43,590 bases of DNA from Achromobacter dolens (GTDB taxonomy: Bacteria > Pseudomonadota > Gammaproteobacteria > Burkholderiales > Burkholderiaceae_B). The notes beneath the pieces are model-generated. The model was not told the origin of the DNA. It worked only from the letters and a program-made list of their open reading frames with translations, and made no database searches. Made by a program: the position numbers and the translations under genes. Where the stretch lies: NCBI RefSeq assembly GCF_902859745.1, contig NZ_CADIJW010000047.1, positions 1 through 43,590 of the forward strand, read 5' to 3'. Shown here piece after piece: positions 22,030 through 26,127 of this stretch; within the stretch, counting starts at the first letter, position 1; each line of letters begins with the position of its first letter.

Positions 22030-23307
22030 ATGTCCCAATTAATGATTGTCTCGATGCTGATTTTCTTCGGGCTGTCCGTGCCGGTCGCCGTGTCGATCGG
22101 GCTGGCCAGCCTGGCGGGGGTCGGCGCCGCCAACCTGCCCTGGCTGGTGGTGGCCCAGCAGCTTTATGCCGCGCTGGACAAGTACCCGCTGGTCGCGATC
22201 CCGTTCTTCATCCTGGCCGGCAACCTGATGGAAGCCGGCGGCATCTCCGAACGCATGGTGGAGTTCGCCAAGAGCGTGGTCGGCGGCATCCAGGGCGGCC
22301 TGGCCTGCACCTGCGTGCTGACCTGCATGATCTTCGCCGCCGTGGCCGGCTCCAGCGTCGCCACCACCTTCGCGGTCGGCGCCATCCTGATCCCGGCCAT
22401 GATCCGCCACGGCTACCCCGCCCCCTTCGCCGCGTCATTGCAGGCCAGCGCGGCCGAGCTGGGCGTGATCATCCCGCCGTCGATCCCGATGATCCTGTTC
22501 GCGGTGTCCACCGACACCTCCACCGGCGAGCTGTTCATCGCCGGCGTCATGCCCGGCATCCTGATCGGCGTGGCGCTGATGTTCTACGTCTGGCTCTACG
22601 CCAAGCGCAACAACCTGGGCAAGCGCGACGGCGAAGGCCGCCTGCCGCTGTGGCCGGCCTTCAAGCGCGCCTGGCTGGCGCTGATGATGCCGGTCATCAT
22701 CCTGGGCGGCATCTACGGCGGCGTCTTCACCCCGACCGAGGCCTCGGTGGTGGCGGTGATGTACGCGGTGGTGGTGGGCAAGTTCATCTACCGCCGCCTG
22801 AGCTTCAGGCAGTTGTCGGACACGCTGCACAAGTCGGTCGTGTCCACCGCCGTGATCATGTTCGTGATCGCCAACGCCGGCGTGTTCAGCTTCCTGCTGA
22901 ACCGCGCCGGCATCCCCGATGCGCTGGGCGTGTGGCTGGCGCAATTGTTCGACACCCAGTTCTCGTTCCTGATGGGCGTGAACCTGGCGCTGTTCGTGAT
23001 CGGCATGTTCATCGAGACCTCGGCCTCGATCGTGGTGCTGGCCCCGCTGCTGCTGCCGGTGGCGCTGAAGTTCGGCGTGGACCCGGTGCACTTCGGCATC
23101 ATCATGGTGGTCAACCTGGCCCTGGGCATGATCACGCCGCCGTTCGGGGTGAATCTGTTCGCGGCCTGCGCGGTGGCGAAGCTGCCGTTGGAGCGGTTGA
23201 TCAAGCCGTTGATTCCGTTCGTGGGGGTGGTGATTGTTTGTCTGATGGTGATTACTTATTGGCCGGGGTTGTCGTTGGGACTACGGGATTTGGTTTATTC
23301 GAAGTAG
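22030..23307 (+). CDS. dctM: TRAP transporter large permease DctM
   Basis: A 425-residue membrane protein of the DctM family (PF06808, about 12 helices), the transport channel of the TRAP system. Typical motifs are PFFILAGNLMEAGGISERMVEFA, VAGSSVATTFAVGAILIPAMI, SAAELGVIIPPSIPMILFAVSTDTS, GVFTPTEASVVAV and FGIIMVVNLALGMITPPFGVNLFAA. Length and order are normal. It ends the plus-strand TRAP operon; an 840-base segment without genes follows. The last stretch of codons (from about 23200) is noticeably richer in G/T at third positions than the rest. Confidence 0.94.
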   Translation: MSQLMIVSMLIFFGLSVPVAVSIGLASLAGVGAANLPWLVVAQQLYAALDKYPLVAIPFFILAGNLMEAGGISERMVEFAKSVVGGIQGGLACTCVLTCMIFAAVAGSSVATTFAVGAILIPAMIRHGYPAPFAASLQASAAELGVIIPPSIPMILFAVSTDTSTGELFIAGVMPGILIGVALMFYVWLYAKRNNLGKRDGEGRLPLWPAFKRAWLALMMPVIILGGIYGGVFTPTEASVVAVMYAVVVGKFIYRRLSFRQLSDTLHKSVVSTAVIMFVIANAGVFSFLLNRAGIPDALGVWLAQLFDTQFSFLMGVNLALFVIGMFIETSASIVVLAPLLLPVALKFGVDPVHFGIIMVVNLALGMITPPFGVNLFAACAVAKLPLERLIKPLIPFVGVVIVCLMVITYWPGLSLGLRDLVYSK

Positions 23308-23327
23308 GTTTTTTGATTGCGGGGGGG

Positions 23328-23508
23328 GCTTCGTAGGCCGCCTGTTGCGGCGGGGTGGGCCGGGTGGGGCGCCAACGATTGCGGTCCGGAGCGTTCGCTC
23401 CGGACTGCCCTATCCTCATCCTCGTAGTCGCCTGCGGCGACTGCCTTCGGATTCCGTCGGGCGCATCGACGGCGCCCCACCCGGCCCACCCCGCCGCAAC
23501 AGGCTACC
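23328..23508 (+). repeat. Structured repeat, copy A
   Basis: From left to right: an end motif GCTTCGTAGGCCG (23328-23340); a 33-base arm (23341-23373); a core of about 97 bases (23374-23470); the perfect reverse complement of the arm (23471-23503); and CTACC. The core holds two hairpins: one at 23384-23405 with ten-base arms GTCCGGAGCG around TT, and a second at 23427-23441 (GTCGCC-TGC-GGCGAC). The whole can fold into a long stem closed over two inner hairpins. It codes for no protein. Confidence 0.88.
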
Positions 23509-23930
23509 GGCATCCAGACATGGGGCGCTGCTACATCGAGGTGTGGGGAGAGAGATTTGCGGGGCCCGCCCCAGGCCGGCCGCGCGGGCGGCCTTTTGGG
23601 GCTTACGCGGGGTCTTGCGTCGGGATGATGACGCTATCGCGTGTGGGAATGGCGAAATCGAGTGCTATTGAGAGATCGTAGGCACCAAGACTGTTTGTGG
23701 TCGGCGCGCGAAGCTCCTCACAAGCAATACGGTGCACATCGCGCCGACCACCACCGCCCCTCCCCCTGACGTGCGGAACCACCAGAAAACCGCTCGCCAC
23801 CCGCGCACAGCGCCCCCGCCCCACATTCAGATGCACAGACGCCCAGCGTGGCCGCCCGCGCGGCCGCGATGGGCAGCCCTGCAGGTTTCGTGCCCTGCAC
23901 ACAGGTCTAGCAACGCAACAAGCCAAGACG

Positions 23931-24112
23931 CTCGTAGCCCCTCGGTCGGGCGGACCCGATGGCGGGCAACCTCGATGCGCCCGACGGAATCCGAAGGAGT
24001 CGCCGAAGGCGAGGACGAGGATGAGGCAGGGGCAGTCCGGAGCGAACGCTCCGGACCGCAATCGTGGGCGCCCGCCATCGGGTCCGCCCGACCGAGGGGC
24101 GACCTACGAAGC
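23931..24112 (-). repeat. Structured repeat, copy B (inverted)
   Basis: On the minus strand this copy has the same plan as the one at 23328: end motif GCTTCGTAGGTCG (24112-24100), a 30-base arm (24099-24070), the shared core at about 90 percent identity by eye, the perfect complement of the arm (23967-23938), and CTACGAG. The inner hairpin is at 24035-24056. The arm sequence is quite different from that of the other copy, yet it is fully self-complementary. Confidence 0.88.
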
Positions 24113-24146
24113 CCGCTCCCGCACCAAAACCCCACCAGGAAAGCCA

Positions 24147-25119
<973 letters not shown>

Positions 25120-25130
<11 letters not shown>

Positions 25131-26127
25131 GGGCAACGCCTCCTTGGTGCAGCCAGCAGGCGCTGAGGGTCGCGCCCGACGGGGTGGACGCCAGCGCCGG
25201 GCGGTCCATGCCGCAGCGCGGACCGGCCTGGCCGCAGCGCGGATGGAAGGCGCAGCCGTCCGGCATCGCGTGCAGGCGCGGCATGGCGCCGTCGATCTGG
25301 TTCAGGCGCGCGGCGCGCTGGCGCAGGCCGGGAATCGCGTTCATCAGGCCCTGCGTATACGGATGGCCGGGGCGCCGCAGCACCTCCAGCACCGGGCCGA
25401 TCTCGACGATGCGGCCGGCGTACATCACCGCCACCCGATCGGCCGTCTCGGCGATCACACCCATGTCGTGCGTCACCAGCAACACCGAGGTGCCCTGCTC
25501 GCGGCACAGCCGGCGCAGCAGCGCGGTGATCTGCGCCTGCACCGACACGTCCAGCGCGGTGGTCGGCTCGTCGGCGATGATCAGCCGCGGCCGCGCCGCC
25601 AGCGCCAGCGCGATCACCACCCGCTGACGCATGCCGCCGGAGAACTGGTGCGGATAGTGGTCGATGCGACGGTCCGCCGCCGGAATGCCGACCGCCAGCA
25701 GCAGTTCGAGCGCGCGCTGGCGGGCCGCGGCGGCCGACACCTTGTCGTGGTGGCGGATGGTCTCGATCAGTTGGTCCCCTACGGTGAACAGCGGGTGCAG
25801 GCTGGTCAGCGGATCCTGGAAGATCGCGCCGATCTCCTTGCCACGCAGTTGCTGACGCGCGCGGGCCGGCAGGTTGTCGATGCGGCGGCCAGCCAGGTGA
25901 ATCTCGCCGCCGCCCAGGCGGCCCGGCGGTTCCAGCAGGCCGATCACGGCCATGCCGGTCAGCGACTTGCCGGCGCCGGACTCGCCCACCATGCCCAGGA
26001 TCTCGCCCGGCTGGATGTCGAAACTGATATCGCGCGTGGCCACCAGGAGGCCGTGGCGGGAAGGAAACTCCACCGACAGGCCGCGCACCGACAGGGTGGG
26101 CGCGGCGGGATTCGGAACGGTCGTCAT
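25120..26127 (-). CDS. Peptide-type ABC transporter ATP-binding protein (DppD/OppD-like)
   Basis: A 335-residue ATPase, first of the pair. It has Walker A GESGAGKS, Q-loop IFQDPLTSLHPLF, signature FSGGMRQRVVIALAL, Walker B LIIADEPTTALDVSVQAQI and switch LVTHDMGVIAETA. The C-terminal GCAFHPRCGQAGPRCGMDRP is the oligopeptide-transporter domain with its cysteines. The ATG overlaps the stop of the upstream amidohydrolase gene by four bases (ATGA). With the two permeases and receptor upstream it completes a five-part importer, interrupted by two enzyme genes. Confidence 0.93.

Follow-up and report, generated by a model that had tools for sequence, protein, structure and literature searches.

A two-part hairpin element with conserved shape and variable but paired arms at gene ends in Achromobacter

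The window analyzed here is a stretch of 43,590 nucleotides from Achromobacter dolens (contig NZ_CADIJW010000047.1). Within it, a gap at 23308-24146 is flanked by two stop codons, those of a DctM (TRAP permease) gene (22030-23307, plus strand) and an oligopeptide ABC ATPase gene (24147-25136, minus strand). The two genes are convergent, and the space between them is filled by two hairpin halves, A and B, in inverted orientation. The original prediction had described an inverted pair with a common core and unlike, perfectly paired arms. This description was confirmed: the arms form 34 pairs in copy A and 31 in copy B with no mismatch in either, and the cores are mutually inverted copies (76 nt at 91% identity plus 34 nt at 91%), whereas the arms of A and B are dissimilar. 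The folding of the window element is far beyond chance (z of about -12 against dinucleotide shuffles).

Half A lies on the plus strand. Its outer terminus (GCTTCGTAGG.., 23325-23339), recognized from a survey of end motifs in 153 copies, lies 20 nt past the dctM stop codon and is followed by the left arm of 34 nt (23340-23373), all bases of which are paired with the complementary right arm (23471-23504). Between the arms, a core of 96 nt (23374-23469) forms a three-way junction with hairpin 1 (23381-23408) and hairpin 2 (approximately 23426-23442), as indicated by its fold and by covariation in 152 distinct cores. An inner module (23505-23641, end approximate) consists of a G/T-rich linker, hairpin 3 (approximately 23569-23601) and a tail, and was delimited by the alignment of 38 flanks from the same genome and by the hairpin 3 pattern. 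A central hairpin with a perfect stem of 12 bp (23697-23751, without assigned strand) was found as an inverted repeat between the halves, and similar sequence was seen by eye in several other copies. Half B lies on the minus strand and comprises an inner module known from the inner flanks (23795-23936, outer limit by analogy with half A; hairpin 3 at about 23839-23880), the 3' arm of 31 nt (23937-23967) paired with the 5' arm of 31 nt (24070-24100), a core of 95 nt (23972-24066) assigned by profile match and core covariation, and an outer terminus (GCTTCGTAGG.., 24101-24115, from the same end-motif survey) about 32 nt from the ABC ATPase stop codon. The predicted motif GCTTCGTAGG(C/T)CG is thus present at both outer ends, and the predicted hairpin positions hold, but the arms measure 34 and 31 nt instead of 30-33. 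The element is also larger than first described, since each half carries about 140 nt of additional conserved sequence inward with another hairpin. As predicted, no coding gene was called in the segment: our gene caller placed none in 23308-24146, although chance open frames exist there. A promoter and terminator scan of 23250-24200 found nothing.

The element is confirmed to be a real multi-copy family, far beyond two copies. A profile search of fetched stretches detected 40 core copies in the window's genome, all 40 of them with a long paired stem, and many more were present elsewhere; a DNA search of the same genome returned 42 rows, two of which were arm-only self-matches. The pattern of core hairpin 1 was found in at least 109 stretches of named genomes, and all of the 80 matches listed were from Achromobacter. 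Using a covariance model of the core, we detected 3-78 matches in each of 42 of the 43 genomes of the genus, and none in the remaining one. In a family-level sample of 250 genomes, 36 were matched, belonging to 3 of 43 genera. Six genomes outside the genus, with 3 to 37 matches each, carry distant relatives of the element and represent two further genera, one of which is presumably Bordetella. Of 59 model matches, 9 repeated a place already counted, which left 50 places in these distant relatives, with stems of 26 to 45 pairs, most of which have an internal mismatched stretch. A literature search found no description of this element in Achromobacter.

Most copies stay at their locus. Reciprocal orthologs in a second genome (G020) were detected for 33 of the 40 own copies, so nothing shows current movement; with a third genome (G010), whose copies were only partly compared (n = 36), 27 of the 40 pair reciprocally. 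On the other hand, four loci of one Bordetella-like distant genome have identical arms, indicating that the element spread in the past, and past mobility is what we infer for the family.

To describe the arms, we dropped 9 of 179 core hits that scored below 60, which left 170 copies. Among their 5126 arm pairs, 5003 are Watson-Crick, 73 are A.C, 8 G.T, 33 T.C and 9 others. Stems of 31-34 pairs are found in 133 of the 170 copies, and 101 stems, including a few short or truncated ones, have no mismatch over the part that was scored. The pairing is maintained in spite of highly variable sequence: arms of the same class at different loci of the window's genome share a median identity of 61% (extremes 39% and 100%, 295 comparisons), so that arms are not identical in most copies. 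In 29 distinct copies with 33-nt arms, the covariation score of the whole structure was 0.473, compared with 0.086 +/- 0.009 for shuffled and at most 0.062 for slid alignments; 98.4% of the cells in the arms and hairpin 1 were paired, cells changed on both sides numbered 208 versus 55 after shuffling, and none of 500 shuffles reached any of the pairing or covariation measures. Two-sided changes were found at 28 of the 33 arm pairs in the same set. The covariation score therefore rules out an ordinary repeat with chance divergence, and it supports the proposal that it is the stem rather than its sequence which is preserved or generated. Shape is conserved in this family while arm sequence is nearly free. 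Two copies deserve mention here: L213 (G020, contig C3) has no recognizable paired arms, whereas its G010 ortholog L233 keeps good ones, and the left arm of L230 (G010, contig C35) is a long G run opposite a normal-looking arm, which could be a sequencing error or a one-sided change.

The core stems also covary. Among the 152 cores, two pairs vary with no wobble or mismatch (CG 69, TA 66 and GC 17 at one; TA 131 and AT 21 at the other), and covariation extends to hairpin 2 and its short enclosing stem. When 17 of the 170 copies with stems below 26 pairs, several of them truncated at contig ends, were dropped, 153 copies remained, and the hairpin 3 pattern was present in 128 of them, in part with paired variable outer arms of its own. 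Each half is built of a long stem, which measures 31-34 bp in the majority of Achromobacter copies, a three-way-junction core and, inward, a linker and a further hairpin. In four cores (L042, L043, L056 and L133), hairpin 1 is followed by some 14 additional bases (GGCCTCGGCGGCC-like), and a core length of 105-110 nt was noted for 11 of the 179 core hits.

The full unit consists of two inverted halves, and at most of the occupied orthologs of the window locus the gene-to-gene gap is 0.6 to 1.2 kb; solo halves occur as well. In two genomes, all 26 close pairs (at most 1.3 kb) are head-to-head and 478-1028 nt apart, a count which omits two weak overlapping matches of G011. Head-to-head pairing is the usual arrangement, but three copies of G006 (contig C7, positions 43936, 45385 and 46857) share one orientation, at distances of about 1.45 kb. 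The end motif lies at its usual place on the outside in 139 of 153 copies, is inverted in 1 and was not recognized in 13. In one copy of the window's genome (L028:2018-2183, contig C50), arms and core are turned around with respect to the outer end motifs, which is what recombination or switching between the arms would produce.

We then surveyed 30 stretches corresponding to the window locus, including the own copy and one paralogous place; 21 have a copy and 9 do not. In 7 of the 9, which are from related genomes, the genes are 43-108 bp apart and the hairpins between them resemble ordinary terminators by eye; in the other 2, the permease gene was not found. These junctions may have arisen by deletion of the element. 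Comparison by eye of filled and empty junctions at this locus revealed no alignable edge, and neither here nor in one distant-relative unit inspected by eye could a target-site duplication be defined, which counts against a mobile element.

The element lies mostly at gene ends. According to our own gene caller, and leaving out 35 of 170 copies with no gene on one side, the neighboring genes are convergent for 75 of 135 copies, point in the same direction for 34 and 22, and are divergent for 4. A sense gene precedes 97 of the 135 copies, ending a median of 50 nt before the arm, and a minus-strand gene faces 109. Such a distribution would be expected if the element were a structured RNA, either a 3' UTR or a read-through RNA, acting as terminator, antisense barrier or RNase III substrate and paired through selection alone. 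This is the main rival of the explanation preferred below, and we consider it rather unlikely, though a serious candidate. It is also favored by a run of at least four T within the next 8 bases after hairpin 3 in 44 of 128 copies. However, a few copies, judged by eye, sit past an intact-looking intrinsic terminator, and wobble-type pairs are rare among the arm pairs counted above (73 A.C and 8 G.T of 5126). Among solo copies between convergent genes (n = 44), an ordinary terminator was seen by eye on the far side in several of those inspected.

To see how the arms change, we compared orthologous copies of three close species (the window's genome, G020 and G010), which were paired through reciprocal best matches of their upstream flanks. 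This yielded 86 pairings, which share species and are not independent. The substitution counts exclude 9 pairings because of indels, 5 because of a class switch and 1 because of its short stem. In the remaining 71 pairings, 78 arm positions show one Watson-Crick pair replaced by another through changes on both sides, 50 show a one-sided change and 6 changed otherwise; the one-sided changes count against the explanation preferred below. The two-sided changes per pair (0.023, 0.037 and 0.049 for the three species comparisons) are one third to half of silent-site divergence, with third-codon-position divergence being 0.063, 0.089 and 0.089. Because two-sided changes are slower than silent ones, selection with quick compensation is a possible cause, and the same fact speaks for an RNA role. 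Quick compensation predicts both slower-than-neutral changes, which are seen, and mostly wobble routes, which are not: 50 of the 78 two-sided changes are of transversion type and have no route through a wobble pair. They are also clustered, with none in 20 of 27, 14 of 21 and 12 of 23 loci and up to 7 in single loci (variance/mean per locus 2.7, 3.6 and 3.0), and in the nine indel pairings the number of gaps is equal in both arms, i.e., indels are mirrored. Such transversions, clusters and mirrored indels are not predicted by stepwise compensation, which argues against a structured RNA kept paired by selection alone. At 20 loci polarized by G010, we found ten two-sided events and six that create a mismatch.

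A different way of changing both arms together would be ectopic gene conversion, in which hairpins are swapped as blocks among copies. The forms of core hairpin 2 recur among loci and switch between orthologs, the arms of L035 and L043 are identical, and 9 of 24 arms at changed loci have a same-genome relative of at least 0.82 identity. These observations suggest that exchange among copies takes part. As the whole explanation, conversion seems improbable: 15 of the 24 arms have no relative above 0.73 among the same-genome copies compared (G010 copies in part), arms and cores switch separately (L009 and L198 have nearly the same arms and 14 core mismatches), and the first mirrored divergence of the arms is left unexplained.

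Mismatches in the arms offer a clue to the strand that folds. We collapsed 153 arms to 62 clusters and ignored the two innermost pairs of each arm. On the strand on which the element is read, 54 A.C mismatches were counted versus 7 G.T, and 20 T.C versus 3 G.A. The same mismatches read G.T (G.U in RNA) or G.A on the opposite, minus strand, and these are the better tolerated mismatches. A mutation bias behind the excess of A.C over G.T was considered and found to be unsupported, since G>A does not exceed C>T in neighboring regions (per site, 0.039/0.043 in the inner linker, 0.023/0.052 in the outer 60 nt and 0.005/0.019 in the core). In addition, the minus-strand loops fit G-N-A motifs in most cores, in line with minus-strand folding. 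Hairpin 1 loops read GNAB in 147 of 151 cores, a nearly frozen sequence which is close to one observation, and hairpin 2 loops read GNA in 108 of 149 cores, with an equally long GNA reading in 29 more. In 32 distant relatives, the corresponding numbers are 19 of 27 for GNAB and 7 of 19 for GNA. Loops of the GNA and GNAB type are extra stable in DNA; our literature search found no paper on this loop-stability argument for DNA.

Other parts of the element disagree. In 150 of 152 cores, the reading strand has G.T as the outermost pair of hairpin 1. This pair would be A.C on the minus strand, which argues against minus-strand folding; as a G.U-type pair kept on the reading strand, it agrees with an RNA. 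Hairpin 3, with 9 A.C-type and 7 G.T-type mismatches and no clear asymmetry, also counts against minus-strand folding, and so does a conserved T.G inside the stem of distant relatives (TG 38 and GT 3 vs CA 18 and AC 11). The linkers, in contrast, speak for minus-strand folding: on the reading strand they contain little C and A (C, 15% and 22% vs 36% after 318 other stop codons), so that their minus strand is low in G and T and difficult to pair. Read on the minus strand they are C/A-rich and G-poor, as is typical of Rho-utilization sites, a feature in favor of an RNA role. Taken together, the arms probably fold on the minus strand, and the whole element may do so as well. That DNA rather than RNA is the folded form is the weaker step.

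The element is non-coding and multi-copy with inverted ends, as is known for MITEs: the window's genome contains 40 copies, the window unit contains no gene, and pairs are head-to-head. As to a related autonomous transposon, close pairs in two genomes are only 478-1028 bp apart, and no autonomous copy was found there or in G087, which counts against a mobile element. A candidate autonomous version in G087, where pairs are 2.5-3.6 kb apart, was rejected, because an IS256-family (Transposase_mut) gene, which looks like a later insertion, accounts for part of the extra length. A whole or partial IS256/Mutator-family gene adjoins the element in 5 of 6 stretches (L285:1084-2376 in G087, and L286-L289), as if it were targeting it. 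Reverse transcriptase was also rejected as a common partner, since RVT_1 occurs without pattern in 4 of 9 genomes (G000, G010, G087 and G141) and not in G006 with its 78 copies. A reverse-transcriptase ORF of 415 amino acids (L308:1156-2403, contig C48 of the window's genome) lies on the same contig as copy L016.

REP/BIME sequences are GTAG-tagged palindromes of 20-40 bp with stems of 5-13 bp, located at gene ends and in inverted pairs (PMC3733652). The element resembles them in its gene-end location, its palindromic inverted pairs and the presence of GTAG at some outer ends; by eye, GTAG is present at TTCGTAGG-type (C-type) ends and absent at TTCTT-type and distant-relative ends, so that many ends lack it. 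It might thus be a REP/BIME member mobilized by a RAYT (TnpA_REP) transposase. However, its stems are much longer (31-34 pairs in 133 of 170 copies, around a core of about 96 nt), and a RAYT-type gene was not found in most genomes tested: a search for the Y1 transposase domain (Y1_Tnp, PF01797), whose control gave a signal in 5 of 14, had no match in the window's genome and, among 8 other genomes, was positive in one; the element is present in 7 of these 8. Stem length and enzyme absence led us to reject REP/RAYT membership, which we regard as very improbable. G006, the genome with the most copies, contains two equal-scoring Y1 domains 1.46 kb apart (contig C48, 5969-6310 and 7433-7774; L303 and L304).

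Considering the observed family, pairing, mirrored changes, arm mismatch asymmetry, bipartite layout and junctions lacking the element together, we tentatively prefer, at a little short of an even chance, a bipartite non-autonomous MITE/BIME-like element that is recognized by its shape and whose arms owe their lasting complementarity to both selection and fold-back (template-switch) copying. The folding strand, which is probably the complement of the reading strand, would fold while single-stranded, as DNA rather than RNA, and a putative enzyme would recognize the fold, by analogy with attC sites or the ends of IS200/IS605 elements. New letters in one arm would be copied to the other by fold-back synthesis, selection would remove copies whose arms remain unpaired, and some exchange among copies would accompany both. 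Fold-back copying and selection with some exchange is the likeliest combination. Among the structured RNA, structured DNA and mobile element offered by the original prediction, we lean to a DNA-level templated process. A more specific proposal, which we hold to be doubtful, is a self-templating hairpin in which DNA fold-back rewrites the arms at a third to half of the silent rate and a putative shape-reading enzyme moves or maintains the family.

The element may be useful for an old question in stem evolution, namely how paired positions change together with no long unpaired phase. A single genus provides up to dozens of orthologous arms of 31-34 bp in each genome, and substitutions and indels that mirror each other can be seen when close species are compared; in these Achromobacter arms, one-step copying could therefore be tested directly against stepwise selection. 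If shape alone is recognized, the element points to an undescribed structure-reading enzyme or an RNA process at gene ends.

Structure-based recognition has a precedent in integron attC sites, single-strand hairpins of variable sequence that are recognized by their structure. The likeness is by analogy only, and no cassette genes were seen with the Achromobacter element. The prediction that no named family fits has stood, as no known family passed its membership tests; Rfam gave no match over the gathering score in the window, and the best hits below threshold were long-hairpin microRNA models. Correia elements (NEMIS/CREE) of Neisseria are small non-autonomous intergenic repeats with a core between inverted repeats and a possible RNase III hairpin, and their inverted repeats form a 26-bp sequence family (PMC2649163). 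The Achromobacter element differs in its nearly free arm sequence (median identity 61%, rather than a conserved terminal inverted repeat), its three-way-junction core and its bipartite units at gene ends. Bordetella repeats include Bor-1, BRE of about 90 bp, whose copies can be tandem with little or no spacing, and Bor-2, a structured intergenic repeat of 167 bp in 17 copies (PMC3110155, PMC2267715, PMC1590033). Compared by description only, both BRE and Bor-2 may overlap with the element; possible tandem copies set BRE apart from it, and Bor-2 may belong to the same family. In RNA stems, template switching has been proposed to change both sides of a stem in one event, and multiple compensatory changes and loop inversions have been discussed in this context (Monttinen and Loytynoja, PMC8794818). 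The stems studied in that work are those of rRNA and microRNA, whereas the arms described here are 31-34 bp long and occur in dozens of copies per genome.
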